Below, piece after piece: positions 46,664 to 63,285 of a stretch of DNA of 64,000 nt. Numbering within the stretch: the first letter of the stretch is position 1; the number at the start of each line of letters is the position of its first letter. Below the pieces are notes generated by a model that worked only from the letters and a program-made list of their open reading frames with translations, had not been told where the DNA came from and did no database searches. Source of the stretch: Magnetococcales bacterium (GTDB lineage: Bacteria > Pseudomonadota > Magnetococcia > Magnetococcales > JADFWU01). A program made the position numbers and the translations under genes. The DNA lies in the NCBI GenBank assembly GCA_015234045.1, contig JADFWU010000001.1, positions 186,001 to 250,000 of the forward strand, given 5' to 3'.

Positions 46664-49600
46664 TTAAAGCCCATTAGCGGGTGTTTGTTCAGCCTTTTGA
46701 AAGTCATTTACACTGAGAAAATTTTCGAAATCAGCGCTGGAGAGTGGTTTGCTGAAGTAATATCCCTGAACCTCACCGCATTGATGGTCCTTGAGAAATC
46801 CAAGTTGTTCTTCCGTTTCCACGCCTTCAGCAATCACGCCGAGGCTCAATGCTTTGGCCATTGAGATAATGGAATTTACAATCGCTGCATCATCGGAATC
46901 AATGGCCAGATCTCGCACAAACGATTGATCGATTTTCAGCGAATGGAGCGGGAATTTCTTTAAATAGCTCAGAGAAGAGTAGCCTGTACCAAAGTCATCA
47001 ATGGAGATATGGATTCCGATATCACGCAGTTTTTCAATAACTGCAATGGCATCATTGGGATCTTCCATCACCACGCTTTCAGTGATTTCAAGTTCAAGCA
47101 TGGCCGTTGGCAAGCCGGTTTCATCCAAGGTTTCCATGATCATATCCAATAATTTGGGATCCTGGAACTGTTTGGACGACAGATTAACGGCAACGCGTAG
47201 CGGTTTATATCCTTGATTATGCCATGTTTTAGCCTGTTGGCAGGCAGTTTTTAAGATCCATTCACCCATGGGAATGATCATACCCGTTTCTTCAGCCAAT
47301 GGGATAAAATCTGCTGGTGAGATCATGCCGCGTTTAGGATGTATCCAACGAATGAGCGCTTCCATACCAATGACACGACTGCTTGATAGAGAAATTTTTG
47401 GTTGATAGAAGACCAGAAACTCTTGTCGTTCAATTGCGCGTCTCAGATCAGCTTCCAGTGAGAGTCTGAGTTCGTTGCTTGCGTTCATTTCTTTGGTATA
47501 GAAACGGTAAGTGCCACGGCCAGCTTCTTTGGCTTGATACATGGCCAAATCAGCGTTTTTGGTCATTGTTTCGAAGTTTGTTCCATCATCAGGGAAGAGT
47601 GAAATCCCGATGCTTGCACCGATAAATACTTCATGACCATCAATGTCAAAGGGGCGTTGCAGGGCTTTAATAATGCCCATGGCAATTGAGCCGATCTCAT
47701 CCACATTGCCCGAGTGTGGCAGTATGACTGTAAATTCATCACCGCCCAGACGGCTGACCGTATCACTGTGACGGAGTTTTTGTTGGGTGCGTTCGGCAAC
47801 CCGTATCAACAGTCTATCGCCTGAATCATGACCGAGAGTGTCATTGACATATTTAAATCTATCCAGATCGATAAAGAACAGGCCAACGGTGTTTTTGTTA
47901 CGATTGGCAAGTTCAATTTCATGTTCCAAACGATCACGAAACAGCGCTCGGTTGGGCAGTTTTGTGAGCGGATCATAAAAAGCCAGTTGCTCTAATTTTT
48001 CTTCAGTGGATTTCTGTCGGCTAATATCCATGAAGATGCCTACATAGTGACCAACTTTTCCTGATTTATTTTTAATGGCATTGATAGTTAGCCATTTGGG
48101 AAATACTTCACCATCTTTGCGCCGATCCCAAATTTCACCTTCCCAGAAGTTGTTTTGCTTTAGATCGGTCCACATTTTACTGTAAAATTCAGAGTCATGC
48201 CGACCAGATTGTGTGATGGATGGGGATTGTCCAATGGCTTCATCCCGACTGAAACCGGTGATCTTTTCATAAGCTGGATTGATGTCAGTGATGATGCCTT
48301 TTATATCGGTAATGACGATGGCTTCACTGGCATTTTCAATGACCATTTTGGAGAGCATCAGGTTTTCTTCTGTCTGACGAATCTCTGTAATGTCCTGAAT
48401 GGTTCCGCGCATAAAGGTAGGTTGGCCATCATCATCACGGCTGACTTCACCACGCTCCAATACCAAACGTTCAGTGCCATCCGGTTGAATAATGCGATGC
48501 TCAACCTGATAGGGCATATCAGGATTTGTTAGAGCATTGTTTACAGCTTCTTCTACCAAATGGCGATCGTCAGGGTGGATATATGTCAATAAGCTCTCAT
48601 AAGAGGGTTGATGCTGCTGTGGTTCTAGTCCAAAAATGCGGTAGATTTCATCTGACCATGTCAGTGTGTTGCCAGCAATATTCCAATCCCAATTGCCTAA
48701 TTTAGCAATACTTTGGGCTTTGGACAGGCTATCTCTACTGTTTTCAAGCGCTGTTGTCAGTTCATTGCGCTGTATTTCATATTTATTGGCATGGATGATA
48801 TTGGCCATCGTGGTAATCAACGGTTTGAGAAGATCAATTAAGGGGGTGTTGTAACCCTCTGGTCGGTTGGCAAAACCGAGCAGACCAATCACCTCATCCG
48901 CTTGGGAAATAGGTAGACCCAGGAAGGCATTGATTGGAGGATGATCCTCATCGGCATGTGTGCCATTGGTCGCATCATTGAGAATGAACGGTTGGTCAGT
49001 TTGTAAGGTCGTTTCAATCAGGGTGTCCAGCTGTGTAAATGTCTGACCACTTTGTTCATGCATTTGGAAGAGACTACGGCTTAGAGAATCTCTTGAAACA
49101 TCTGTGATGGCCAGCATGTTCAGCTTGATTTTTTGCCCTGTACCTACAATTGTTTCACCGATCAGACCAAATTCGCTGTTAGTCAGGCTGAGCATTTCAT
49201 TGAGTAATTGATCAAATACCTGATGTGGATTTGTGCTGCGAATATATTGAGACTGAGCCTGATGGATAGCAGAGAGTAGGGTATTTGTTTGGCGTCGGGC
49301 TTCTTCACTCTTCTTTCTGGTTGTGATTTCATTGGATAGAGACGTGTTTGCTTTTTGTAATTGCGCGGTACGACGAATGACGCGCGACTCCATATCCTTT
49401 TGAAAGGTTTGGAGTTTATCTGCCATTACATTAAAGCTTGCTGCCAGACTTCCCACTTCATCGCCTGATACAATTTCAGCCCTTTGGCTCATGTCGCCAG
49501 AAGCAATTTTGGCAGTAACATGGTTAAGATTATCCAGGGGAACGATAATGGAACGTCCCAGGATAATTCCCGTTATCACGACCATGCCAAGAATAGCGGC

Positions 49601-50569
49601 AAGAATCACAATGCCCCAGTTGTTCAATGCGATGACATTGGCCATGGCTTCGTTGGCATCGACTTTCACAACCATACCCATACGTGCCAGAGCAACATAG
49701 CGCCAAGCGGCGAGCACTACTGTGCCGCGATAGTCGTGGGAAAGATTTTGATCTCTTTCTCCTTGAAGAGCGAGACGGATGGGGGCGGCAAAAGTGTCAT
49801 CATCCACTTTGTTGGTTTTTTTAATCTTGGATAGATCTGAAAACTTTAAAGGAAACAGGAAGGTGATTTCATCACCAGAATCCGTGGCAACAACGGTTTC
49901 TCCGGTATTGCCAAGACCGGTTTGATCGGTGACGACATTTTGAAAATGTTTATTGTTTATTTGTAAAACCAACGCGCCTACAACCTGCTTGTTATCTATC
50001 ACAGGCGTTGCAATATAAGCTGCTGATTCTTTGGATGGTGTGTGGAAGCGATAGCCGGAAAAGCTGGTTTCACGGTGTGTTATTGAATGATTAACAACGC
50101 TGGCCAATTCAGAATCACCAGATGGTACACTTTGGATATTGGAAGTACTATATTCTTCCTGTTTGATAGTGAAAACGATCTCACCATCGGCAGAAATCAG
50201 GAGCAGATCATAGTAGTTACCATGCGTTGTATAGTGTTCATAATAGCTTCTTTGCTGTTTGGTTAGAAGATTATACTCTTCGGATCTTGATCCATGAAGT
50301 TGATGTAATTTGATGAATTTTTTCAGATCACTTAACGTTCTTGGTGATTGGCTCAGTAGCAGAGCATCTTTTTGGCGTTCGCGGATGAAGTCTTCAATTT
50401 GAACTACTTTTTTGTCAGCCACATGAGCCAGGCTTTGCAATACCATTTCCTGCAAAGAGGCATCATACTGTTGAATCATCCAGCTACCCAACAGCAGGAT
50501 TGGCAACAGGGTAAGCGCAATAAGCACGCTAAGCAGACGGGTTCTAATTGAAGAAAACAGACGGACCAT
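46664..50569 (-). CDS. Bifunctional GGDEF-EAL c-di-GMP protein with periplasmic Cache, HAMP, GAF and two PAS domains
   Basis: 1301 residues. TM1 (about 12-30), a periplasmic double-Cache-like region (about 35-310), TM2 (about 315-340), HAMP (about 340-395), GAF (about 430-600), PAS (about 630-735), PAS (about 750-865), GGDEF (about 870-1030) and EAL (about 1045-1285). The cyclase site is intact (SRLGGDEFTVIL) and preceded by an RxxD inhibitory site (RHSD). The phosphodiesterase site is intact too (GMEALIRWIHP, ELEITESV, IDDFGTGYSSL). It may therefore make or break c-di-GMP depending on periplasmic and cytosolic signals. Convergent with the ParA operon; it is the only c-di-GMP gene in the window and could be linked to the Wsp-like array functionally, though unlinked genetically. 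Confidence 0.95.
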   Translation of the reverse strand: MVRLFSSIRTRLLSVLIALTLLPILLLGSWMIQQYDASLQEMVLQSLAHVADKKVVQIEDFIRERQKDALLLSQSPRTLSDLKKFIKLHQLHGSRSEEYNLLTKQQRSYYEHYTTHGNYYDLLLISADGEIVFTIKQEEYSTSNIQSVPSGDSELASVVNHSITHRETSFSGYRFHTPSKESAAYIATPVIDNKQVVGALVLQINNKHFQNVVTDQTGLGNTGETVVATDSGDEITFLFPLKFSDLSKIKKTNKVDDDTFAAPIRLALQGERDQNLSHDYRGTVVLAAWRYVALARMGMVVKVDANEAMANVIALNNWGIVILAAILGMVVITGIILGRSIIVPLDNLNHVTAKIASGDMSQRAEIVSGDEVGSLAASFNVMADKLQTFQKDMESRVIRRTAQLQKANTSLSNEITTRKKSEEARRQTNTLLSAIHQAQSQYIRSTNPHQVFDQLLNEMLSLTNSEFGLIGETIVGTGQKIKLNMLAITDVSRDSLSRSLFQMHEQSGQTFTQLDTLIETTLQTDQPFILNDATNGTHADEDHPPINAFLGLPISQADEVIGLLGFANRPEGYNTPLIDLLKPLITTMANIIHANKYEIQRNELTTALENSRDSLSKAQSIAKLGNWDWNIAGNTLTWSDEIYRIFGLEPQQHQPSYESLLTYIHPDDRHLVEEAVNNALTNPDMPYQVEHRIIQPDGTERLVLERGEVSRDDDGQPTFMRGTIQDITEIRQTEENLMLSKMVIENASEAIVITDIKGIITDINPAYEKITGFSRDEAIGQSPSITQSGRHDSEFYSKMWTDLKQNNFWEGEIWDRRKDGEVFPKWLTINAIKNKSGKVGHYVGIFMDISRQKSTEEKLEQLAFYDPLTKLPNRALFRDRLEHEIELANRNKNTVGLFFIDLDRFKYVNDTLGHDSGDRLLIRVAERTQQKLRHSDTVSRLGGDEFTVILPHSGNVDEIGSIAMGIIKALQRPFDIDGHEVFIGASIGISLFPDDGTNFETMTKNADLAMYQAKEAGRGTYRFYTKEMNASNELRLSLEADLRRAIERQEFLVFYQPKISLSSSRVIGMEALIRWIHPKRGMISPADFIPLAEETGMIIPMGEWILKTACQQAKTWHNQGYKPLRVAVNLSSKQFQDPKLLDMIMETLDETGLPTAMLELEITESVVMEDPNDAIAVIEKLRDIGIHISIDDFGTGYSSLSYLKKFPLHSLKIDQSFVRDLAIDSDDAAIVNSIISMAKALSLGVIAEGVETEEQLGFLKDHQCGEVQGYYFSKPLSSADFENFLSVNDFQKAEQTPANGL

Positions 50570-52015: not shown

Positions 52016-53128
52016 CTAGCCAGGTTGGACAACATTTTTTCTGATGAAATCCAGATCGCGGTGTAGTCTATGCCATTTGGTCATCGGTGTAATCATGAGC
52101 AGGACCAATCCATTGGTTAAAAATGACTCTTTAACAGTTTGTGCCAATCTCATTCGACTTGTACTAAATCGTATCAACGCTTCATCACTCAGTTGATGTT
52201 GTCCATCCACACTTCTGGCCGCCTGTAAGTCGGGCTTAAGAAAGCTGGGACGCATGTCACGATCACTATGCCAGAAATGGCTATATGCGTCTTGTTTGAT
52301 CAACAGATTTTTAATTTTGGACGCTTCCAATCCTTCGAAGAGATAGGCAATGATTTCATCTTTGATACGCAATAGTGGCTGGTTATCTTGTGAATAAATA
52401 AGAGAATTGAGCAACCAGTGTACCCCATGACCCAACTCATGGCGCACGGTATTGCGTTGTTCATCGGAATTATTTTCAAGCACACAAAGATTGACCAGTA
52501 TAATGGAGCCCGCCATATCTGGAAATTTGGATATGGGGCGACCATCTATCAACGCAGCATGTGACACGCCTATATTTTGTTTGGTTACAGCTTCAAAATC
52601 TTCTTTACGATCAAAAAATATGACCAGATGTCCCCATTGAAAAGAGAGTTTTGGTGTCCCTTTAATCTGTTTTGGATCTAAATCATACATCTTGGAAAGC
52701 AATAGCGTAGGATTGGTTCCATAGTGTTGCAGAACCTTGGCAATTTCATTGGCCGTTCGGCAATAGTAGTAAACGATCTTTAGGGTCATATAATTTTGAA
52801 TGATTGTGAACTGCTCTGGTTTGTTGATAAGATCGAATAAAAAAGATTTGAAATCAATTTGTTGTCCGTTGTCAAACAATGCTTTGCTGAGGTGAAGGGC
52901 GCGTTTTGGCAATGCGGAAAGCCGAATCAATTGCCGGTAATGACCGCGTTTGATTTTTGCACATTTGTTGCGCCGGGAAGATCGTGAATTGTCTGGCAAA
53001 TCATTTGGATCTATACTCCTATTGAGAAAGTCGATCAGCTTAGTGCCAGAGTGTTGTACAACCCCCTGAATCCAATCTGATTCTTTCGCAGGCAGATCCT
53101 GAATTAATGTATGAAAAGGGCTATCCAA
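52016..53128 (-). CDS. Putative zinc metallopeptidase (HExxH), unknown family
   Basis: 370 residues. The zinc motif RHELGHGVHWLLNS (HELGH near 230) is followed 20-30 residues later by IKDEIIAYLFEG, giving a possible third ligand Glu in gluzincin style. An earlier segment (LSFQWGHLVIFFDRKEDFEAV) looks like beta-strands of the catalytic core. No signal peptide or membrane helix, so probably cytosolic. The first codon is TTG: an in-frame TAA lies two codons upstream and no ATG is near, so a shorter start is possible. Same direction as the small gene and ArsM-like gene, with 87 bases between. Substrate unknown. Confidence 0.7.
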   Translation of the reverse strand: MDSPFHTLIQDLPAKESDWIQGVVQHSGTKLIDFLNRSIDPNDLPDNSRSSRRNKCAKIKRGHYRQLIRLSALPKRALHLSKALFDNGQQIDFKSFLFDLINKPEQFTIIQNYMTLKIVYYYCRTANEIAKVLQHYGTNPTLLLSKMYDLDPKQIKGTPKLSFQWGHLVIFFDRKEDFEAVTKQNIGVSHAALIDGRPISKFPDMAGSIILVNLCVLENNSDEQRNTVRHELGHGVHWLLNSLIYSQDNQPLLRIKDEIIAYLFEGLEASKIKNLLIKQDAYSHFWHSDRDMRPSFLKPDLQAARSVDGQHQLSDEALIRFSTSRMRLAQTVKESFLTNGLVLLMITPMTKWHRLHRDLDFIRKNVVQPG

Positions 53129-53193: not shown

Positions 53194-53658
53194 ATGGGAC
53201 TTTGGGACAGTTTGAAAGCGGTTTCTAATCTTGTAACGGGTGGCGGAGCCAAAGTCACGCTTGAAGTGATCGCACCTTCTGTTCGTGAACCGATTCAAGT
53301 CACCATTCGTGCAGAGGTGGGAGACTCTGATTTAAATGTACGCCGGGTCTATCTGATGGTCCGGGCCGAAGAGGATGTGGAAATACCCGATGTGCCCATG
53401 GCTGATGAAGATGGTACAATCATTCGGCAGGAGCTTGAGCGGGAAACAGAAACCTGTCGTTTGTCTTTTGATATTGCTGGTGAAATAGAGCTGCCTGCTG
53501 GATCAAGCCATGAATGGCAGGCTCAAATCGAACTGCCAGTTAATGCACAACCCACTTATAAAGGTCGGTATGCCGAGCATGAGTGGAAATTTTTTGCCGG
53601 ATTGGATACCTTTGGTAACGATCCTGATTCCGGTTGGATGGAAATTATTATCCAATAA
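53194..53658 (+). CDS. Arrestin-like / Spo0M-like beta-sandwich protein
   Basis: 154 residues. Begins MGLWDSLKAVSNLVTGGGAKVTLEV, alternates short strands (PIQVTIRAEVGDSDLNVRRVYLMVRAEEDVEI) and ends LPAGSSHEWQAQIELPVNAQPTYKGRYAEHEWKFFAGLDTFGNDPD. The pattern fits sporulation-control Spo0M/arrestin-N type beta-sandwiches, which act as scaffolds. It is acidic and soluble. The gene stands between the HExxH gene (divergent) and the large hemerythrin fusion gene (same direction, 113 bases downstream). Function unknown; the assignment is structural resemblance by eye only. Confidence 0.7.
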   Translation: MGLWDSLKAVSNLVTGGGAKVTLEVIAPSVREPIQVTIRAEVGDSDLNVRRVYLMVRAEEDVEIPDVPMADEDGTIIRQELERETETCRLSFDIAGEIELPAGSSHEWQAQIELPVNAQPTYKGRYAEHEWKFFAGLDTFGNDPDSGWMEIIIQ

Positions 53659-53771: not shown

Positions 53772-56396
53772 ATGAAAAAAATCAAAAAAATAAAAATATC
53801 CAATGGTCTGTTCTGGGTAGAGATTCCAGAGGTACAACTCTATATCCAGTGCGGATGCCCGGCTGATAGTGTTAAGCACTTGATGAAACGTGGTATTATT
53901 GTTGACCAGGAAAAAGGCGGTGCAACCTGTGAAACAGGGCCAAATGCCATTGTACTGTCCGATATGATGATCCAAAACGGTAGTTTTGCCAATCTGGCAG
54001 AGTTTCCGGTGCTGCAAATGTTTTACCGCCAGGGCATGATTATTCCCAATCATCCCAATAATAGCGGCGATAATCCCATTCTGATCGGTCTGCGCGAGCA
54101 GGTGGAAGCGCAGATGCGTTACATCTTTCGCGGAAATTATGGCCTGACCTCAAAAGAGGAGATGCTGGCCGCTGGCGTACCACCCGATCAAGTGGATGAG
54201 CAAATGCGTATGAAATTGCGCTTTGCTTTTGGCAATATCCGTGCTTCTGAAGCCCTTCTTGATCATAGATTCGTTGATTCTGACCCTGTAGAAGTGCGTG
54301 ATGGTGTAGTAATTCAACGTCTTAGAGTGAATTTGTTCAGAATAACCTACGGTTCTGAACATGTGGATGTCGATCTCAATCTCTCATACTCTGCCAACTA
54401 TCAGGCACCCTATCCGCTCAGTTTCCATAGTATCAGACGCGAATATTTCGGTATCATCCATTCAGGTGACGGTGATGGATGGGATATCAATCGGCCCTCC
54501 ATGGCCAGTATCCTGATGTTTCAAGGCAAGATTTATTTGATTGATGCGGGTCCAAATATCATGGCCAGTTTGTCTGCACTGGGTATCGGTATTAATGAGA
54601 TAGAAGGGCTGTTTCATACCCATGCGCATGATGACCATTTTGCTGGTATTCCAACTCTAATCCGGGCTGGGCACCGTATCAAATATTATGCAACACCGCC
54701 TGTACGTGCCTCTGTAGCTAAAAAACTGGCTGCGCTGCTGACCATGCCTGAAGAAGATTTTGGTGAATACTTTGAAGTGCATGATCTGGAATACGATGTT
54801 TGGAATAATATCGAAAGCCTGGATGTGATGCCGTTGTTCTCACCCCATCCGGTAGAGACATCGATTTTTCATTTTCGTACGATCTGGCAAAATGGGTACA
54901 GCAGTTACGCCCATTACGCCGATATCGTTGATTTGGATGTGCTGGATGGTATGGCTGGGCCTTCTGAAGAGAATGGTATTACCGCTACCTTGGTTGCCAA
55001 GGTCAAGGCCGATTATGCCAAGCCTGCACAGATCAAAAAACTGGATATTGGCGGTGGAATGATCCACGGAAAAGCGGAAGATTTCCGCCATGACCGTTCA
55101 GAAAAAATGATTCTGGCACATACGGCACTGGAGTTGACCGACCAGGAGAAGGAGATTGGTTCCGGTGCGCCTTTCGGCACTGTTGATGTACTGATCCCAA
55201 CCCTTCAGGAGTATGTCTGGAAATATGCTTATGAGTTTTTGGAATCCTACTTTCCAAACGCACCTATCGACCAAATCCGTATTCTGCTAAATAATGAAGT
55301 GGTTACGTTCAATCCAGAAAGTATTATACTCAAATCAGGTAATATCAATGATGATATCTTTCTGATTCTTACCGGTAGTGTTGAGATGATCAATGCCAAT
55401 TCCGGTATGCGTGACATGATGTCAGCTGGTGTCTTAGTGGGTGATATCTCCGCGCTGAACAATGAGCCATCATCAAGAACCTATCGGGCTGCTAGCTTTG
55501 TTCAGGCACTACGCATGCCCTGTAGTGTCTATATGTACTTTATCAAAACCAATGGACTATATGATGAGGTGGAGCGGTTACAGGTTAAGCGCTCCTTTCT
55601 GCAACGCACCTTCTTGTTGGGTGGTGCACTCTCCTATACTACACAAAATCAAATAGCCCGCCGTATGCAAGAGATCACTGTTAAAGCAGGTGAGAAGCTG
55701 GAGCATGAAAACCAGCCTGATCTGTTTGTGATCATTGATGGTGAAATGGAACGGGCTCTGGGTGATGATATCCTGGAGATTCTCGGACCTACCGATGTGT
55801 TTGGTGAAGAGTTGGCGGTATTCGATACGCCACCGCTGTTTGAAACGCGTGCTTCAGTGAATACGCGTATCTATTCCATTGCTGGTGAATCAGTACGTGA
55901 TATTCCATTGATTCGTTGGAAATTGTTCGAGATTTTTGAACGTCGTCGTCGCCGTGTGTTGGAAGTGGGTGAAGGCGGACAGGTGCCTTTGATATGGCGT
56001 GCTGAATACCATGTTCATATCAATGAAATGGATCAGCAACACCAGGAACTGTTCCGGTTGGGTAAAGATGTTCTTGATCTGATTGACTCTCAGACCGGTG
56101 GAGAACCTCTGAAACACGCATTCTGCCAATTAATCAAGTATACACACTTCCATTTTGATGATGAAATCAGCTTGTTACGCAGGCGTGATTACCCAGAACT
56201 GGCAGCTCATGAAAGACAGCATCACGTGCTGTTAAATCAAATAGAAGAATTGAAAGAAAAAATGGTTGCTCAGGATTATGTTATTTCTGAAAATTGCGAT
56301 TTTATAGAATTTTTCAAGAAGTGGCTTGTTGATCATATTCTTTCAGAAGATCGTAAATATGGCACATTCTTTCGGGTGTCTGGTTGGGGTATGTAG
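53772..56396 (+). CDS. Fusion of metallo-beta-lactamase fold, two cyclic-nucleotide-binding domains and hemerythrin
   Basis: 874 residues. About 200 N-terminal residues of unknown type, then a metallo-beta-lactamase fold with GLFHTHAHDDHFAGIP (near 280-296) and later His (SPHP near 358), two cNMP-binding-like domains (about 500-610, 615-735; DDIFLILTGSVEMI, DLFVIIDGEMERAL) and a C-terminal bacteriohemerythrin (about 745-874) whose diiron ligands are all visible: HQELF, YTHFHFDDE, AHERQHHVLL and WLVDHILSEDRKY. The hemerythrin would bind O2. The lactamase site could hydrolyse a cyclic nucleotide or similar ester, or be a flavodiiron-like metal site. No helix-turn-helix and no membrane helix: a cytosolic oxygen-responsive sensor/enzyme is the best guess. 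Confidence 0.9.
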   Translation: MKKIKKIKISNGLFWVEIPEVQLYIQCGCPADSVKHLMKRGIIVDQEKGGATCETGPNAIVLSDMMIQNGSFANLAEFPVLQMFYRQGMIIPNHPNNSGDNPILIGLREQVEAQMRYIFRGNYGLTSKEEMLAAGVPPDQVDEQMRMKLRFAFGNIRASEALLDHRFVDSDPVEVRDGVVIQRLRVNLFRITYGSEHVDVDLNLSYSANYQAPYPLSFHSIRREYFGIIHSGDGDGWDINRPSMASILMFQGKIYLIDAGPNIMASLSALGIGINEIEGLFHTHAHDDHFAGIPTLIRAGHRIKYYATPPVRASVAKKLAALLTMPEEDFGEYFEVHDLEYDVWNNIESLDVMPLFSPHPVETSIFHFRTIWQNGYSSYAHYADIVDLDVLDGMAGPSEENGITATLVAKVKADYAKPAQIKKLDIGGGMIHGKAEDFRHDRSEKMILAHTALELTDQEKEIGSGAPFGTVDVLIPTLQEYVWKYAYEFLESYFPNAPIDQIRILLNNEVVTFNPESIILKSGNINDDIFLILTGSVEMINANSGMRDMMSAGVLVGDISALNNEPSSRTYRAASFVQALRMPCSVYMYFIKTNGLYDEVERLQVKRSFLQRTFLLGGALSYTTQNQIARRMQEITVKAGEKLEHENQPDLFVIIDGEMERALGDDILEILGPTDVFGEELAVFDTPPLFETRASVNTRIYSIAGESVRDIPLIRWKLFEIFERRRRRVLEVGEGGQVPLIWRAEYHVHINEMDQQHQELFRLGKDVLDLIDSQTGGEPLKHAFCQLIKYTHFHFDDEISLLRRRDYPELAAHERQHHVLLNQIEELKEKMVAQDYVISENCDFIEFFKKWLVDHILSEDRKYGTFFRVSGWGM

Positions 56397-56422: not shown

Positions 56423-56454
56423 AAAAAAGCCGACCTCATAGGGTCGGCTTTTTT
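56423..56454. terminator. Strong bidirectional intrinsic terminator
   Basis: AAAAAAGCCGACC and GGTCGGCTTTTTT form a 13-bp stem around a 6-base loop. It lies between converging genes (hemerythrin fusion and sco). Confidence 0.93.
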
Positions 56455-56480
56455 GTCTGATTTCGGATCGAAATCACGAT
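56455..56480. repeat. Short palindromic repeat shared with 19361-19386
   Basis: GTCTGATTTCGGATCGAAATCACGAT differs from GTCTAATTTCGGATCGAAATCACTAT at 19361 by two bases. The core GATTTCG-GAT-CGAAATC is an inverted repeat. It directly follows the terminator and may be a solo end of repeat family C. Confidence 0.6.
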
Positions 56481-56486
56481 ACTATG

Positions 56487-57167
56487 TTATTTCAATGACG
56501 CGTAATATTTCTGAACTTCACGGATCTCAGCAAACAAAGAGTCCATACTCATCCTGTCTGGATAGATCATGCCGACAAACCGACCATCAGGATCAATCAG
56601 ATAAAAAGCGGAAGTGTGATTTACCACATAGTCGCCATGCTCATCTTTATCACCGATTATATAGCCAGCACCAACGGGTTTAGCCAGCTTGTCAACGGCA
56701 TCCTGTGACGGGCCGGTAACACCGACAAAATCTGGGTTGAAATAGCCGATATACTCTTTGAGGACATCAGCTGTATCACGTAATGGATCTACAGAGACAA
56801 ATACTGCCCGTGTTGTCTTGGCAATAGGATCGTCAACCTCACCTAATCGGGTAAAAAGCTCGGCCATTTTACCTAACGCCAATGGACAGACATCCGGGCA
56901 ATGGGTATAGCCAAAAAAGGTAATATTCCATTGTCCTTTCAAATTATCTTGAGTGAATGGCTGGCCAGCCTGATCAATCAGATCAAAATCCGGCACCACT
57001 TTTGGAGAGTCCAATAAAAGCGCCTTCAAAGCTTCAGGGGCTTTTTGCGTGGGTTGGTTCAAATTGAAATAGTTCAGGCCGATACTGAGTGCTGCAAAGA
57101 AAAGGGAGGCACCTATGAAGATGATGGCTACCTGTTTCATTGAAATGCCATTTTCAGTGTTTGACAT
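56487..57167 (-). CDS. SCO1/SenC-family copper chaperone
   Basis: 226 residues. An N-terminal membrane anchor (about 11-30; VAIIFIGASLFFAALSIGLNYF) and a thioredoxin-like domain with the copper-binding GYTHCPDVCPLALG (CxxxC near 81-85) and the distal His in DYVVNHTSAFYLID. SCO proteins load copper into the CuA site of cytochrome oxidase subunit II from the periplasmic face. It is the last gene of the oxidase assembly group (ctaB upstream, with a repeat element between). A second SCO-like gene lies within the oxidase operon at 61643-62464, so two copper-delivery proteins are encoded in the cluster. Confidence 0.94.
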   Translation of the reverse strand: MSNTENGISMKQVAIIFIGASLFFAALSIGLNYFNLNQPTQKAPEALKALLLDSPKVVPDFDLIDQAGQPFTQDNLKGQWNITFFGYTHCPDVCPLALGKMAELFTRLGEVDDPIAKTTRAVFVSVDPLRDTADVLKEYIGYFNPDFVGVTGPSQDAVDKLAKPVGAGYIIGDKDEHGDYVVNHTSAFYLIDPDGRFVGMIYPDRMSMDSLFAEIREVQKYYASLK

Positions 57168-57272
57168 AGTGATAGGTCTTTATGAAAGCAGTGATTTGAC
57201 ATGTATAGAATCAGATTCCATGGTTTATTTCTGATTCTGGACTCAAGTGTAATTTATTTTCAATCTACACTG

Positions 57273-57377
57273 TTAGGCGTTACGCAGTTGAATGAACGTG
57301 TACCCGTTTCCCGCAGAAGCGGGAATGACGCTCTACGCTTTGATGCCTGTTCAACCGGCAATTGCGTAACGTCTAAC
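57273..57377. repeat. Palindromic repeat family B, copy 2
   Basis: Ends GTTAGGCGTTACGCAGTTG and the complement of CAATTGCGTAACGTCTAAC are a 19-bp inverted pair with two mismatches. The right 40 bases match 38702-38741. The centre holds TTCCCGC-AGAA-GCGGGAA. It lies in the 250-base gap between ctaB and the SCO gene and may end the ctaB transcript. Confidence 0.8.
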
Positions 57378-57417
57378 TGTTAACAGCAAGAGCGTGCAGA
57401 AAAAAAAGAGTGTCAAC

Positions 57418-58305
57418 TCAAAACAGGTAATTCAAAAAGTCTTCAGGGGTTTGGGCATCAATAACAAGGAATAGAAATAGGATTCCGAGATAACGCATCG
57501 AACCGATGAAGTTTTTCCAGGCTTCTTGTCGGGTAGGTGTCTGAACCATCTTCCAGTTACCAGCTAACAGAAGAACGCCAGCGATTAGCGCACCAATACC
57601 GTATATCACCCCAAGCTCGCCCAGATACCAAGGCACCAGTGACGATCCGACCAATAAAATACTATTGACCAAAACCCAGTTGGCTGCCCGTTGTTCACCG
57701 ACAACGACAGGAAGCATAGGCACGCCTACCTTGCGATACTCCTCTTTAAGGAAAATCGCCAAAGCCCAGAAATGAGAGGGTGTCCAAAGGAACAGTACCA
57801 CAGCCAGCAACAACGGCAGAACACACAACTCAGGGCAAACAGAAGCCGCACCAGCCAACACGGCAAAGCTACCAGCCGCACCGCCAATGATGATATTTAC
57901 CCAGTGCCGACGCTTCAGCCAAACCGTATAGACGATGCCATAGACAAAGGCACCCAAGAACAGGTGCAGTCCAACGATAGGATTGAAATACCAACTGGCT
58001 ATACCGACACCCGTTATAATCAATCCACCAGCCAGCCACAGCGCGTTATAAGGATTGCCCATCTCCTTGGTCGCCAATGGGCGGGTGGAAGTGCGCTCCA
58101 TTTTGCGATCAATATCACGATCATAGAAGTGATTGAAAACCGCACTGCTGGCAGAACCCAGCATCATCACCAAAATCAACATAGCAATGTGCGCCAAGCT
58201 GACCTGTTCAGCCATGGCCAGATAAGAGACCAAAGCTGTTAACGTGATCATGCCGCCGATACGCAGCTTGAGCAGTTCGATATAGCGTTTTGCTGTCATA
58301 GCCAT
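57418..58305 (-). CDS. ctaB: Protoheme IX farnesyltransferase (heme O synthase)
   Basis: 295 residues, normal length, with about nine membrane helices. The prenyltransferase motif FNHFYDRDIDRKMERTSTRPLA (near 60-82) supplies the Mg-diphosphate Asp residues, and LKRRHWVNIIIGGAAGSFAVLAG and FLWTPSHFWALAIFLKEEYR are the other family signatures. It adds a farnesyl group to heme B to make heme O for the oxidase. Heme A synthase (CtaA) is not in the window, so heme A versus O in the oxidase cannot be decided here. It is 12 bases downstream of the DUF420 gene in the assembly operon. Confidence 0.96.
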   Translation of the reverse strand: MAMTAKRYIELLKLRIGGMITLTALVSYLAMAEQVSLAHIAMLILVMMLGSASSAVFNHFYDRDIDRKMERTSTRPLATKEMGNPYNALWLAGGLIITGVGIASWYFNPIVGLHLFLGAFVYGIVYTVWLKRRHWVNIIIGGAAGSFAVLAGAASVCPELCVLPLLLAVVLFLWTPSHFWALAIFLKEEYRKVGVPMLPVVVGEQRAANWVLVNSILLVGSSLVPWYLGELGVIYGIGALIAGVLLLAGNWKMVQTPTRQEAWKNFIGSMRYLGILFLFLVIDAQTPEDFLNYLF

Positions 58306-58317
58306 GCCGAACGATTC

Positions 58318-58797
58318 CTAACTTGATGTATAGATGTGAAAGGCCATCCAGTAGACCACCACACCTGTAACAGAGACATACAGCCAGATAAAGGCCGTTT
58401 TATAGGCGATTCGCCGGTGTGCTTCAAGCTGTGTTGATCCATCACCACCTGAACGTTCAAGTCGAATCCCTTTCCAGGCTCTAAGAACGGTCATGATGAT
58501 CATGACGAGGGCAATGGCTGCAAACAACACATGAGAGATTAAAATGGTGAAGTAGATGGCGCGTACCTCGCCAACACCGGCAAATTCAACATGCCCAACA
58601 TAGGCATGATATACCAGATAAGAAGCAAGGAAAATCGACGAAGTGATCAATGCTAAGATCATCGCCATAATATGTCCACTGCGATTATTACGTCGAATAC
58701 GACCCACGCCTAATAGAATGAACAGGGTCGAAAGGACGTTCAAAGCCGCTTGTAGATGAGGGAGATAGCCAATGAATTCAGGCTGATGTTCAAACAT
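58318..58797 (-). CDS. DUF420 membrane protein of the oxidase assembly operon
   Basis: 159 residues with four predicted membrane helices. It starts MFEHQPEFIGYLPHLQAALNV and has the DUF420 stretches RIRRNNRSGHIMAMILAL, ASYLVYHAYVGHVEF and EAHRRIAYKTAFIWLYVSVTGVVVYWM. DUF420 proteins commonly lie with ctaB and cytochrome oxidase genes and are assumed to help in assembly or heme handling (the conserved His residues could bind heme or copper). The start lies 6 bases after the stop of the small membrane-protein gene; ctaB follows after 12. Molecular role is unproved. Confidence 0.9.
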   Translation of the reverse strand: MFEHQPEFIGYLPHLQAALNVLSTLFILLGVGRIRRNNRSGHIMAMILALITSSIFLASYLVYHAYVGHVEFAGVGEVRAIYFTILISHVLFAAIALVMIIMTVLRAWKGIRLERSGGDGSTQLEAHRRIAYKTAFIWLYVSVTGVVVYWMAFHIYTSS

Positions 58798-58803
58798 AAT
58801 GGA

Positions 58804-58965
58804 TCAGGCTCCGAAGTGGAATACCTTGAAGAATAAAGAGGCGTACATAAAGACAGCCAAGCCAATCAGTACAATGGCGAAGATGAATTTGCCTTTATTA
58901 TTTGATTTCGGCGCACTCTCCGAAGAGGGTGTCGTAGAGACATTGGATTCCTGATTCTCAGCCAT
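58804..58965 (-). CDS. Small single-span membrane protein of the oxidase cluster
   Basis: 53 residues from the ATG at 58965 with GGAG ten bases upstream; a longer open reading upstream to 59196 lacks a ribosome site and family character. Residues 1-25 are polar (Ser/Asn/Glu-rich), then one membrane helix (FIFAIVLIGLAVFMYASLFFKVFHF). Its place directly before DUF420 and ctaB suggests a small oxidase subunit (subunit IV-like) or an assembly factor. No direct homology is recognised. Confidence 0.8.
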   Translation of the reverse strand: MAENQESNVSTTPSSESAPKSNNKGKFIFAIVLIGLAVFMYASLFFKVFHFGA

Positions 58966-59268
58966 GTGTGACTCCAAAGAAGAATAGCCCGATTGACAAA
59001 TTCCTACTATACGCGCTTTGTCTGTCCAGGGCACTAGACAGGCTCTAAGAAATATCAAATAGCTAAAAAAATCAAGGGCTGGTGAAACAATATTCGTATA
59101 AATGGTGCCGTATTCAGATAATGAAATTCTATAAAAGAATAAAATACAAAACGGATGCTGTTTATCAATGAAACAGTAATGGGTCGTGATGCACACTATT
59201 TTGAGCGATTAAGGCAAAAAAAAAGCGGGGAAACAAAGTCCCCCCGCTTTTTAAATTCAACATACGAC
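58966..59268. promoter_or_regulatory. Gap between ctaD and the assembly operon: terminator plus likely promoter
   Basis: 303 bases. The ctaD terminator occupies 59220-59252. The rest is AT-rich and must contain the promoter for the small-protein/DUF420/ctaB group, but no convincing -35/-10 pair can be assigned by eye. No other gene seen. Confidence 0.4.
59220..59252. terminator. Intrinsic terminator after ctaD
   Basis: AAAAAGCGGGG pairs with CCCCGCTTTTT (11 bp) around an 11-base loop; on the minus strand it ends in a run of T. It lies 17 bases after the ctaD stop. Confidence 0.92.
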
Positions 59269-60870
59269 TTAGCGTTTATCGTAGTTGTAAGGTGTCCAGT
59301 CAGCTGTCAACTCAACATCCTTGGGGAAGTTACCCGGACCAGGAGGTGAGGGGCAGTGAGTCCATTCCAGGGAGGCAGAATTCCAGGGATTCTCAGGGGC
59401 TTTCTCGCCGCCGATTGCACTGAAGAGCCAGTTCAGAATGGTAATTGCCATACCAACTGCAACGATCACAGCACCATAGAAGGCAATTTGATGATATCCC
59501 TCAAATTGAGGAAACATCTGGTAGTCCCAGTAACGACGGGGCATGCCCTGGATGCCGATGATGAACAGTGGCCAGAAGGTCACGTTCACACCAACAAAGT
59601 TGATCAAGAAGCCAAGTTTACCCATTTTTTCATTCGGCATACGACCACTGATTTTTGGGAACCAGTAGTAGACACCAGAAAAGATTGCGAAGGTCGCAAA
59701 GATGGCCATCACATAGTGGAAATGGGCATGTACAAAGGCAGTCTCACTCAGATGCACAGTCATGGAGGTCATGGCGAGCGGAATACCGGTCAAACCACCA
59801 ATCAGTACCAGGAAGAGACAGGAACCAGCATACAACATGGCTGTGTTGTATGTGATGGCACCGCGATAGAGCGTGCCCCACATGGACATAACCATCAGGC
59901 CAACTGGTACGGAGATCAGCAAGGTGGAAACCATCTGACCAACACGAATCCAGTCGGGCATGCCGGCAACGTAAAGATGGTGAACCCAAACTTCACCAGC
60001 CAGCAGGGTAATACCCCAGACACCGCCATAAACGCAGGCTTTATAGTTAAAGATACGGTTCTTAGCCATGCCAGCGATAACCTCAAAGAGGACACCCATG
60101 GCAGGCAGGAAGATAACGTACACGGCAGGATGTGAATAGAACCAGAACAGATTCTGATACAACAACACATCACCGCCAGCAGCGGGATCAAAGAAGTGCG
60201 TACCCAGATACTTGTCGAACAGCAGCATGGTTACGGCAGCAGCCAGAACCGGGATGAAGATCAGCTGGATGACAAAGGCCGCTACGGTTGTCCATACGAA
60301 CACGTTGAGCTGGTTCCAGCCCATTCCGGGTGCGCGCATGTAAACCACAGTGACAAGGAAGTTGACCGCACCCAGGATCGACGAGAACCCCAACAGATGG
60401 ACAGTGAACACATAAAAGGATGTGTTGGCACTGGTCATAACCGAGTAGGGTGGATAGCCGGTCCACATGATGTCCGGGGTGTCCGGGATCACAAAACCTG
60501 CCAGCGCAAGTACGATGGCCACAAAGAAGAGCCAGACGCTGAAGGCGTTGATCCGAGGAAAGGCCACGTCATTGGCCCCGATCATCAACGGGATAAAGTA
60601 GTTGGCAAAGTAGCCGGTCAACCCTGGAATCAAAAATGCCAGGATCATGGCAGCACCGTGAAAGTACAGCCAAGTGTTATAGGTGTCGCCGCCGGTGAAG
60701 GCGTCGCCAACCAGGTTTGGTCCCAATTGGGACTGTTCAATACGAATCAAAAGGGCCATGGTGCCGGCCACAGCGAAAGCGGCTAAAGAGCCGACGAGGT
60801 ACATTACCCCGATTCGCTTATGGTCGGTCGTAAAGACCCACTCTTTCCAAGATGATTGTGCTGCGCTCAT
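59269..60870 (-). CDS. ctaD: Cytochrome c oxidase subunit I (A2-type heme-copper oxidase)
   Basis: 533 residues from the ATG at 60870 (GAGG about 10 bases upstream; a TTG three codons earlier is less likely). About twelve helices. The heme a ligand lies in YFHGAAMILAFLIPG, the CuB ligand and cross-linked Tyr in YSHPAVYVIFLPAMG, the His pair in VWVHHLYVAG and the heme a/a3 ligands in HLSETAFVHAHFHYVMAI. YSHPxVY instead of GHPEVY marks the A2 subfamily, where a Tyr-Ser pair replaces the D-channel Glu. IGANDVAFPRIN retains the channel Asp. It reduces O2 to water and pumps protons in the inner membrane. It follows ctaC in the operon. Confidence 0.97.
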   Translation of the reverse strand: MSAAQSSWKEWVFTTDHKRIGVMYLVGSLAAFAVAGTMALLIRIEQSQLGPNLVGDAFTGGDTYNTWLYFHGAAMILAFLIPGLTGYFANYFIPLMIGANDVAFPRINAFSVWLFFVAIVLALAGFVIPDTPDIMWTGYPPYSVMTSANTSFYVFTVHLLGFSSILGAVNFLVTVVYMRAPGMGWNQLNVFVWTTVAAFVIQLIFIPVLAAAVTMLLFDKYLGTHFFDPAAGGDVLLYQNLFWFYSHPAVYVIFLPAMGVLFEVIAGMAKNRIFNYKACVYGGVWGITLLAGEVWVHHLYVAGMPDWIRVGQMVSTLLISVPVGLMVMSMWGTLYRGAITYNTAMLYAGSCLFLVLIGGLTGIPLAMTSMTVHLSETAFVHAHFHYVMAIFATFAIFSGVYYWFPKISGRMPNEKMGKLGFLINFVGVNVTFWPLFIIGIQGMPRRYWDYQMFPQFEGYHQIAFYGAVIVAVGMAITILNWLFSAIGGEKAPENPWNSASLEWTHCPSPPGPGNFPKDVELTADWTPYNYDKR

Positions 60871-60899
60871 AATTCCCAATCCTCTATTAAAATGGCGAA

Positions 60900-61622
60900 T
60901 CAGGCCTCAGATTCCATTTTTTTGACCCAGGCTTCATACTGTGCTGGAGGCACGGCTTTGACTGGAGCATACATATAAGAGTGACGTGTTCCACAGAACT
61001 CAACACAGGTCACCCAGCTCTCTTTGGCTTCAACAGGGTTGAACCAGATATAGGTGATACGGCCTGGCATCACGTCTTCTTTAACCCGGTAGGTGGCCAT
61101 GCCGAATGAGTGGATAACATCGATGGATTCCATGCGAAGCACAACAGGTGTGCCAACGGGAACCACGAGTCCACTACCTTCTTTGGAGTCAACGTCATAG
61201 GTTGAGATGATGCCGTTCTCATATTCAAATTCCCAGTTCCACATGGAACCGGTCACTTTGACTTCCATGGCATTTTCAGGAACAGTCCGGTAGGTGTTCC
61301 AGAGTGTCCATCCCTTGGCAGCCATGAAGAAGTCATCGGCCATGAAGATCGTTGCAGGAATCAAAGCCCAGGCCAAAGCCTGTGCGCGGGACAATTTAGG
61401 TCCACGACCTACTTGGTCCGGGCTGGTAGCACGGTACTTGAACAGCATGATTAAAGCGGCGATGCCGAAAATGGCACCGATTACTACCAAGTCCCAGAGT
61501 ACTTTATTCCAAAGCACGTCCCAGTCTGCGGCGGGGTTGGGCAGCCCGCCCTCAGACGCAACGGCACCGGTCGCCATCAATGCGATAGCAATACCGGTCA
61601 GTGCCGAAAGTCTCCCTTTCAT
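60900..61622 (-). CDS. ctaC: Cytochrome c oxidase subunit II
   Basis: 240 residues from the ATG at 61622, nine bases after AGGAGG; the ATG at 61631 lies inside that ribosome site. A signal peptide (ALTGIAIALMATGAVA), two membrane helices (VIGAIFGIAALIMLFKY; ALAWALIPATIFMADDFFM) and a periplasmic cupredoxin domain with the CuA site: IHSFG, CVEFCGTRHSYM (two Cys, His, Met) and the Glu between. It takes electrons from cytochrome c. It lacks the C-terminal cytochrome c domain found in many A2-type caa3 oxidases, so an external donor is needed. Confidence 0.96.
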   Translation of the reverse strand: MKGRLSALTGIAIALMATGAVASEGGLPNPAADWDVLWNKVLWDLVVIGAIFGIAALIMLFKYRATSPDQVGRGPKLSRAQALAWALIPATIFMADDFFMAAKGWTLWNTYRTVPENAMEVKVTGSMWNWEFEYENGIISTYDVDSKEGSGLVVPVGTPVVLRMESIDVIHSFGMATYRVKEDVMPGRITYIWFNPVEAKESWVTCVEFCGTRHSYMYAPVKAVPPAQYEAWVKKMESEA

Positions 61623-61642
61623 GATTGACATCCTCCTTCTAC

Positions 61643-62464
61643 CTAACTTTTACGAAATTTACGAAAATAGACTAAGGAACCAACTAAAATCGAAACACCC
61701 AGGATAAACGACCCGGCCCCGACAAAAAGGGGGATGTTATAGGTGTAACGGCCTTCTTTGTAGTTGTAACTGTAACAAATGCTTACTGCCAGTTCGATGA
61801 CCTGGCTAGGCCGGAATTTTCCCTGATGAGCATCCAGTATGGCCAGTTCCATGTCCGTTTGATCGTTGGTTAATGCGTACAGATAGCGAACAACCCGACC
61901 TTCAGGAGAGAGAAAAATGTATACATTGGGATGAAAAAATGTCTGATCCTGAGCACTCCAGAAGTATTTAAAGCCGACACTCTTCGTGAGTGCTTCCATT
62001 ACCTCTGGATCTTTAATCAGGCCCAGTTTCCACCCCTTCTTCAACTTCTCTGAAAGTGCCAGTTCCTGCTGGAAATTGGCCATTGTGTCAACCGTGTCTT
62101 CCTTGTCGAAAGAGAGGGTAAGAACGCGGTAATCTTTGCCAATTTCGGTACGCTCAATGTCCTCAAGCATCTCCTTGAGCACACTGTTAACTGCTGAACA
62201 ACTGCCATCACAGGTATAGTAGGAAAAAACCAGAATGGTCGGCTCGCCCTGAAAATCCCGGAATGTAAACGCTTTTCCGTCTACATCGAGCATTTCCAGA
62301 TCAGGGCTGATTTTCACCCCCATGAACTTCTTATCATCAATCTTGAAGATGTTGGGATCAATGTCAGAGTCCGGGTTGCGAAAATAACGACCCTCCACCA
62401 CGACCGGCAAGGTGATTCCCAGGAGAATCAGGATGATGCCGATAATGGTGTTAGGTCGATACAT
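61643..62464 (-). CDS. SCO-family protein with C-terminal membrane helix, within the oxidase operon
   Basis: 273 residues. Starts with a membrane helix (NTIIGIILILLGITLPVVV). The SCO-like domain has FSYYTCDGSCSAVNSVL (CxxxC near 82-86), a 'DKEDT' strand and the distal His in FFHPNVYIFLSPEG. A C-terminal helix (FVGAGSFILGVSILVGSLVYF) near 245-268 is unusual for plain SCO1. Likely a copper-loading chaperone or thiol reductase for the CuA Cys in subunit II, encoded directly downstream (20 bases). It differs clearly from the SCO at 56487-57167, so the two may act at different steps. Confidence 0.88.
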   Translation of the reverse strand: MYRPNTIIGIILILLGITLPVVVEGRYFRNPDSDIDPNIFKIDDKKFMGVKISPDLEMLDVDGKAFTFRDFQGEPTILVFSYYTCDGSCSAVNSVLKEMLEDIERTEIGKDYRVLTLSFDKEDTVDTMANFQQELALSEKLKKGWKLGLIKDPEVMEALTKSVGFKYFWSAQDQTFFHPNVYIFLSPEGRVVRYLYALTNDQTDMELAILDAHQGKFRPSQVIELAVSICYSYNYKEGRYTYNIPLFVGAGSFILGVSILVGSLVYFRKFRKS

Positions 62465-62526
62465 GATTCCACAATTCCTTGATGATGCCGCTCAATTAAG
62501 CAGTTAACAAAACTACGTTACGTGCT

Positions 62527-63285
62527 CTACCAGAAATAGATCTGGGAGGCGACGAAAAACCACACCACGTCAACAAAGTGCCAGTAGACACCGACTGAAG
62601 CTGTGAGTGTGTGATTGCTTCTACCCTTAAATGCGGGGATAAGAACCGCAAGAAAGCTGCCCAAACCAACAAGCACATGCGAAGCGTGGAAACCAGTGAT
62701 GGTATAGAACGCTGTGCTGAATGCATTGGCGGATGGACCGAAACCAATATGAAGCAGATGTTGATATTCGTAGACAGTCAGACCCAGGAAGATGGTGCCG
62801 AGGATCAGAGTGATGATCAACCATTTACGGAAGCCCGCCATATCACCCGCTTCATCTTTCATTTCAGCGACATGATAGGTGATGGACGATCCGACCAGGA
62901 AGAAGGTCATGATTACAGGAATGAGCAAATTCAGCTCTGGCGTACCTTCTGGCGGCCAATTTCCACCTTGGGAAAGACGCATGGTCCAGTAAGCGGTAAA
63001 CAGCCCCAGGAAGATGAAGATCTCAGAAACGATAAAGATCGGCAGTGCCGTAGCAGCCAGACCAGCAACCAATGGTTTCTGGGTCAAGCCCTCATGTACC
63101 CAACGGGCGATTCCGGCCAGGAGTATAGGTGTGCCCAGGCCAGTAAAGAGGATTGTCAGCATAGTGTCTTCATAGACGAAATATGCCGAAAATCCGAGAG
63201 GTACGAGAAGGAAGGTACCGATGACAACGGCTGTCGGTGCCCAACTCCACTCCCAGTGATGCTCATGTCCAGCGGCTGTACTCAT
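62527..63285 (-). CDS. ctaE: Cytochrome c oxidase subunit III
   Basis: 252 residues, about seven membrane helices. Family signatures are FIVSEIFIFLGLFTAYWTMRLSQGG, LLIPVIMTFFLVGSSITYHVAEM, GLTVYEYQHLLHIGFGPSANAFSTAFYTITGFHASHVLVG and the C-terminal GVYWHFVDVVWFFVASQIYFW. It stabilises subunit I and helps proton uptake. It is the first gene of the oxidase operon; the usual order places ctaE last, so the arrangement ctaE-sco-ctaC-ctaD differs from common clusters. Ribosome site GAGGAGAG lies about nine bases before the ATG. Confidence 0.95.
   Translation of the reverse strand: MSTAAGHEHHWEWSWAPTAVVIGTFLLVPLGFSAYFVYEDTMLTILFTGLGTPILLAGIARWVHEGLTQKPLVAGLAATALPIFIVSEIFIFLGLFTAYWTMRLSQGGNWPPEGTPELNLLIPVIMTFFLVGSSITYHVAEMKDEAGDMAGFRKWLIITLILGTIFLGLTVYEYQHLLHIGFGPSANAFSTAFYTITGFHASHVLVGLGSFLAVLIPAFKGRSNHTLTASVGVYWHFVDVVWFFVASQIYFW

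Follow-up and report, generated by a model that had tools for sequence, protein, structure and literature searches.

A widespread family of metallo-beta-lactamase proteins with variable sensor domains, including a predicted oxygen- or redox-controlled phosphodiesterase from Magnetococcales

Described relatives and the gene from Magnetococcales

Apyc1 and YhfI, which are class II phosphodiesterases with the metallo-beta-lactamase (MBL) fold, hydrolyse cyclic mononucleotides (cNMPs), and catalysis by Apyc1 also involves two residues from the opposite subunit, E74 and Y112 (PMC9117128). Both enzymes are single-domain homodimers. In Dictyostelium, GbpA and GbpB combine an MBL domain with two downstream cNMP-binding domains (CNBDs) and are cNMP-activated cNMP phosphodiesterases (PMC11988041). 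These type IIb enzymes (GbpA for cGMP and GbpB for cAMP) have the MBL domain and then the two CNBDs on a single intracellular chain. Long-form RNase Z (ELAC2) has two MBL domains in tandem, of which the N-terminal one is degenerate, and has no sensor domains or CNBDs. Hemerythrin domains gate second-messenger enzymes that act on c-di-GMP: Bhr-DGC from Vibrio cholerae (VcBhr-DGC) and Bhr-HD-GYP from Ferrovum (PMC8846402). Chimeric hemerythrins of Magnetococcus have been tallied in surveys, which left the partner domains unidentified in about 20 chimeras overall (PMC2556348).

Here we describe an 874-amino-acid protein from a Magnetococcales bacterium that resembles each of these systems in part. 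Magnetotactic cocci locate the oxic-anoxic boundary and contain many hemerythrins and class III cyclases; we know of no described route from oxygen to cyclic-nucleotide signalling in these bacteria.

The gene lies at 53772..56396 of a 64,000-nucleotide stretch (the window) of a 3.65 Mb MAG. (Coordinates are window positions; the gene is on the + strand.) The open reading frame is intact, with an ATG start, 874 codons, and no internal stops. Homologues from independent genomes are about 50% identical across their full length, so this is not a chance open reading frame. The initial annotation described one polypeptide in which a pair of CNBD folds lies between an MBL domain and a hemerythrin domain, and Pfam and NCBIfam matches that exceed the curated cut-offs along this intact frame bear this out.

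Two MBL domains in one chain

Residues 226-480 (54447..55211) form the predicted catalytic MBL domain, which resembles Apyc1 and the other class II phosphodiesterases in both fold and profile matches. In Pfam, the protein matches Lactamase_B_2 (E = 2e-8) and Lactamase_B (E = 2e-7). The HxHxDH site had been noticed before, and the ligand set that we predict from the sequence is complete: the motif HAHDDH (residues 284-289, within THAHDDH; 54621..54638) includes H284, H286, D288, and H289, and these are joined by H359 of the third metal motif (54846..54848), D384, which is the probable bridging aspartate (54921..54923), and H450 of the fifth metal motif (55119..55121). None of the seven varies among the 111 family members that we aligned, and neither does D287. 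Alignment to Apyc1 backs these assignments: H359 falls in the column of an Apyc1 histidine, D384 in that of the aspartate in the SSD motif, and H450 in that of the histidine in the L-x-H-Y/H motif. D425 and H432, in DIGGGMIH (55044..55067), are also invariant and are aligned with active-site residues of Apyc1. In all, nine columns (the seven ligands, D425, and H432) are identical with the Apyc1-like rows of our alignment, which are from phages and Magnetococcales; one of the four Apyc1-like rows has glutamate in the D425 column.

The best fold matches by VIA were three Apyc1 structures (Z = 23.2, 23.1, and 22.6; rmsd 2.6-2.7 Å), with 7u2r at the top (Z = 23.2, 220 residues aligned, 2.6 Å). About 2-3 Z units or less separated Apyc1 from PqqB, a Brucella nucleotide-bound protein, YhfI, PhnP, and RNase Z, and the absence of a family from such a list does not exclude it. 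When a profile of the domain was compared to all PDB chains with hmmsearch, Apyc1 was also the best sequence match (E = 4e-7), and a profile-profile comparison with Apyc1 (hhalign) gave a probability of 97. The Pfam model for Apyc1 (PF23023) scored 19.5 bits, below its curated cut-off of 50. By these sequence comparisons, the catalytic domain is a relative of Apyc1 that lies outside the Apyc1 family proper. A search of a phage collection gave weak partial matches only, with the known phage Apyc1 among them. We rejected the idea of an O2-binding lactamase in the antibiotic sense, as the models for true beta-lactamases scored far under their cut-offs.

The catalytic domain differs from Apyc1 at the position of E74. 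The Apyc1 of SBSphiJ7 has E74 and Y112 at the expected places, but the corresponding residue of the catalytic domain (residue 294) is proline or threonine in 104 of the 111 members.

The initial annotation did not recognise the N-terminus. Structure prediction (AlphaFold2, followed by VIA and Foldseek) now shows that residues 1-225 (53772..54446) are a second, degenerate MBL domain, fused to the active one. The AlphaFold2 model of this region alone had a pLDDT of 91 (from 62 sequences), and the top 50 VIA matches to it were MBL-fold enzymes throughout. RNase Z (1y44) was first (Z = 11.8, 156 residues aligned, 4.1 Å) and Apyc1 (7t28) was next (Z = 11.2, 152 residues aligned, 3.0 Å). The best Foldseek match was also Apyc1 (7u2s, E = 3e-3, probability 1.0). 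The Z scores are middling, but the match list is uniform and the alignments cover nearly the whole domain, so we consider this to be the MBL fold. The kinship is visible by fold alone: in hhalign comparisons of the N-terminal domain to Apyc1 and to the catalytic domain, there was no sequence signal (probabilities of 0.6 and 0.4). The strand that leads into the metal motif is retained (NAILLSD), and HxHxDH is replaced by S63-D64-xxx-Q68-N69.

This pseudo-MBL domain is as conserved as the catalytic one. Mean pairwise identity is 59% for each of them, as compared to 33% and 32% for the two CNBDs, and the numbers of invariant positions are 30 (pseudo-MBL), 38 (catalytic MBL), and 2 and 1 (CNBDs). 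The equal conservation of the two MBL domains argues that the pseudo-MBL domain takes part directly in catalysis. One of its residues, E77 (54000..54002), opens the helix that follows the lost metal motif and is identical in 111 of 111 members; its presumed role comes from its place in the fold, which makes it a candidate for the in-trans E74 of Apyc1. Besides E77, the invariant residues include Y117, R120, G121, G124, and L125. E77, Y117, and the RGNYGL motif are candidates for in-trans catalytic residues, although the sequence alignment does not support this. Complementary losses within a fused dimer would explain why the catalytic domain lacks E74 while the pseudo-MBL domain has an invariant E77. 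In contrast to the homodimers Apyc1 and YhfI, the place of the partner subunit would be taken by the fused pseudo-MBL domain.

The CNBD tandem, the hemerythrin domain, and the variable sensors

The two CNBD folds are at residues 497-612 (55260..55607) and 613-731 (55608..55964), based on Pfam, Foldseek, and the alignment. cNMP_binding (PF00027) matches in two stretches (60.7 bits, E = 1.3e-16), and structures of the regulatory subunit of PKA are the top Foldseek matches for the tandem. The canonical phosphate-binding cassette, with a glutamate and an arginine, is incomplete in both. In CNBD1, the glutamate position is D558 and the arginine position is S567 (arginine in 9 of 111 members); CNBD2 retains FGE, with E679, and has P688 at the arginine position (arginine in 16 of 111). 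The other CNBD genes in this genome have an intact canonical cassette (for instance, FFGELSLIYEKPRNATI), so the loss of the arginine is specific to this tandem.

We therefore rejected the view that these domains are ordinary cAMP receptors, and the label of cyclic-nucleotide sensor, which the initial annotation gave to both, is doubtful given these residues. Unlike in GbpA and GbpB, the phosphate arginine is absent, and allosteric activation of the GbpA type, by cNMPs at the CNBDs, is not supported by the sequence; the mode of activation is probably different. The regulatory subunit of PKA in trypanosomatids, in which the phosphate arginine is replaced, binds purine nucleosides (PMC10959531). 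Like our protein, it has tandem CNBD folds with these replacements, but it regulates a kinase, and we view its nucleoside binding as a precedent and not as evidence about our protein.

The bacteriohemerythrin domain is at residues 742-867 (55995..56372). It matches Hemerythrin in Pfam (PF01814, residues 750-863, E = 1.1e-12, 48.9 bits versus a cut-off of 25.3) and bacteriohemerythrin in NCBIfam (NF033749, E = 4.2e-28, 98.1 bits versus a cut-off of 84). As the initial annotation stated, all of the diiron ligands are present, namely five histidines and two carboxylates (H757, H794, E798, H813, H817, H855, and D860). In one subclade of the family (L138, L119, L122, and L130), the histidine ligand of helix B (H794) is replaced by cysteine or serine, and judging by these residues its members may have an altered diiron site. 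The family may include some of the surveyed chimeras whose partner domains were not identified. As in VcBhr-DGC and Bhr-HD-GYP, a hemerythrin domain is joined to a putative second-messenger enzyme, but those act on c-di-GMP and have other folds, and the hemerythrin domain of Bhr-HD-GYP is N-terminal.

The domain order had been thought unusual, but it is common in Magnetococcales. All 48 of the Magnetococcales genomes that we searched have family members, and at least 39 have a full-length member with the hemerythrin domain. The genome we studied encodes three of them: besides the present protein, there is another of the hemerythrin type (49% identity) and one of the receiver type. Within the phylum, the core (both MBL domains and the CNBD tandem) is found in 55 of 398 genomes, and 7 of those 55 are outside of Magnetococcales. 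When we scanned GTDB with the family alignment, the core was encoded by at least 552 stretches. Among the 80 of these that were listed are Mariprofundus, Desulfamplus, Desulfobacterales, Nitrospinota, SAR324, Betaproteobacteria, Rhodospirillales, Neomarinimicrobiota, and Candidatus Anammoxibacter. The full domain order, with hemerythrin, is also found in a few genomes from Desulfobacterota, Rhodospirillales, and anammox bacteria; the hemerythrin-bearing members from beyond Magnetococcales are L136, L144, L147, and L051 (from genome G169). The order is widely found, but no known role for it turned up in the literature that we searched: we found no paper on the combination of hemerythrin, MBL, and CNBD or on output proteins with receiver (REC) and MBL domains. 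The family is apparently undescribed so far.

The domains around the core vary. By Pfam, representatives have an N-terminal Response_reg domain, an N-terminal SBP_bac_3 domain (a periplasmic sensor), a C-terminal hemerythrin domain, both REC and hemerythrin (L004), or no additional domain. In a quick, midpoint-rooted tree of the core from 111 members, the architectures require 15 changes, as compared to 62 with shuffled labels, and the tree splits into one half with hemerythrin or no sensor and another half with receiver or SBP domains. Since the sensors changed 15 times around a fixed core, the core is the output and the variable domains are the inputs. In other words, the MBL domains and the tandem CNBDs are a module for signalling output, which can take its input from hemerythrin among other sensors. 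These swappable sensors, along with the pseudo-MBL domain that precedes the catalytic domain, are further differences from GbpA and GbpB. The likeness to those proteins is one of layout, taken from their description, and membership in their family cannot be claimed.

We also note some individual members. The SAR324 member L137:3974-6661 has the same core, and at its C-terminus, where hemerythrin would be, there is a zinc protease domain (Zn_protease, PF05618); we had considered this extension as a hemerythrin candidate and rejected it. In G017:C14:32600-35196, a shortened core is followed by hemerythrin as a separate, adjacent open reading frame in a different frame, which could be natural or could be an assembly error. 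Several receiver-type members (L078, L089, L025, L099, L110, L111, and L113) adjoin genes that we assigned by eye as CheC-like or CheD-like, which suggests a link to chemotaxis.

Predicted activity and genomic context

The protein is a real and complete member of a widespread multidomain family, and it is predicted to be a signalling enzyme because the core is fixed while the sensors change and because the MBL domains (59% identity) are more conserved than the CNBDs (32-33%). We are highly confident that it is a regulated hydrolase of the MBL phosphodiesterase type that acts on some messenger. More specifically, we think that it is probably an oxygen- or redox-controlled phosphodiesterase for cNMPs, with Apyc1 being nearest by both fold and sequence and with nine active-site columns in common. 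The layout of GbpA and GbpB and the precedents of Bhr-DGC and Bhr-HD-GYP also point this way. We infer the substrate, the in-trans contribution of the pseudo-MBL domain, the ligand of the CNBDs, and the direction of the effect of oxygen.

The genome is consistent with a role for cNMPs. It encodes nine class III cyclase domains (matches to PF00211), receptors with canonical CNBDs, and a 577-amino-acid protein that joins a receiver and a class III cyclase domain to hemerythrin (L191:1490-3223; G000:C95:51989-53722, minus strand). Open reading frames that combine cyclase and hemerythrin are found in 8 of 48 Magnetococcales genomes (G000, G004, G008, G011, G018, G020, G022, and G025), and all eight also encode the hemerythrin-MBL protein. 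No class I phosphodiesterase (PF00233) was above the cut-off in the genomes of 61 relatives, which also favors a cNMP phosphodiesterase. Together with the Apyc1-like MBL domain, the cyclase-hemerythrin protein makes the link between oxygen or redox and nucleotide signalling, as originally suggested, plausible. The loss of E74 from the catalytic domain weakens the case, as does the absence of cyclase genes from the recurrent neighbors of family members.

If the protein is a cNMP phosphodiesterase, then the dimetal site would be in the second MBL domain, and the first, having lost its own site, would pack against it as a built-in partner, in the way that Apyc1 and other dimeric enzymes use their second subunit. 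E77, Y117, and RGNYGL of the first domain would probably be part of the active site. The tandem CNBD folds would act as a relay and may have a ligand of their own, bound without the canonical contacts to cAMP, and the C-terminal hemerythrin would sense oxygen or redox via its diiron site and switch the enzyme. Paralogues have, in place of this sensor, either a receiver domain, to which histidine kinases would feed the signal, or a periplasmic binding protein.

The substrate is less sure, as enzymes with the MBL fold act on many different substrates, and Apyc1 is closely followed in Z score by PqqB, PhnP, and RNase Z. With the same architecture and regulation, the enzyme might act on another phosphodiester or messenger (a cyclic dinucleotide, a ppGpp-like compound, or a cyclic ribose phosphate) rather than on 3',5'-cNMPs. 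This would fit the missing E74 as well as invariant residues that are specific to the family (in HSGEGDGWD, H381, and D441) and that suggest a dedicated pocket; but Apyc1 tops the matches of both kinds, and a class III cyclase that is linked to hemerythrin is encoded in the same genome, so we consider another substrate to be rather unlikely. It is improbable that the protein is an oxygen-controlled RNA-processing nuclease related to RNase Z or its long form, which would then be the source of the tandem MBL arrangement. The pairing of a pseudo-MBL with an MBL domain does recall ELAC2 (the full model aligns with it by VIA at 380 residues over 1-476, Z = 19.5, 4.3 Å), and there are weak matches to RNase Z models, but identity to ELAC2 along the aligned chain is just 12-13%, the NCBIfam equivalog for RNase Z scores 37.3 bits against a cut-off of 292.95, so we rejected membership in that family, and several paralogues per genome are wired to signalling inputs. 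It is very improbable that the MBL domain has no catalytic function and that the protein works as a switch by binding a ligand or as a scaffold: catalysis is predicted here from sequence and fold, and nine residues of the active site show no variation in the 111 members, whatever their sensor type or phylum.

Returning to the cNMP phosphodiesterase, we tentatively suggest a more detailed proposal, which as a whole is possible but speculative: that the family is a widespread, unnamed class of bacterial signalling phosphodiesterases in which an Apyc1-like dimer was fused into an asymmetric pseudo-dimer, with the metals kept by one half and the in-trans catalytic residues by the other, and in which the tandem CNBDs have switched from cyclic nucleotides to another ligand (such as nucleosides). 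If so, oxygen, phosphorelays, or extracellular solutes would be integrated with a purine signal at the breakdown of cNMPs. Apart from this proposal, if the protein is an oxygen- or redox-controlled cNMP phosphodiesterase, one genome would encode a matched cyclase and hydrolase, with hemerythrin on each; and the core, which at least 552 stretches in public genomes encode and which is now annotated as an MBL fold/cNMP-binding protein, would be an output module with modularity comparable to GGDEF or EAL, and a bacterial counterpart to the layout of GbpA and GbpB.

In another genome (G007, L156:98-2280), an Apyc1-like MBL gene (above the cut-off for PF23023) is directly downstream of a gene with CHASE2 and class III cyclase domains, and a hemerythrin gene adjoins this pair. 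These two could be a host pair for the synthesis and breakdown of cNMPs.

The neighbors of hemerythrin-bearing members differ, and the recurrent ones are two-component genes. Because the gene neighborhood varies, we dropped it as a source of operon clues. In the window, the upstream open reading frames 52016-53128 and 53194-53658 have no match in Pfam; the first has a HELGH motif like that of zinc metallopeptidases. Also nearby, at 46664-50569, is a 1301-amino-acid dCache-HAMP-GAF-PAS-GGDEF-EAL protein. Downstream, on the minus strand and convergent with our gene, are genes for SCO1, a heme O synthase-like protein, and cytochrome c oxidase (56487-63285). Between our gene and SCO1, we identified by eye an inverted repeat flanked by runs of A and T (56424..56455). 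This is a probable two-way terminator and would give the gene its own transcript end, which, along with the convergent SCO1 gene, suggests that it is a single-gene unit.
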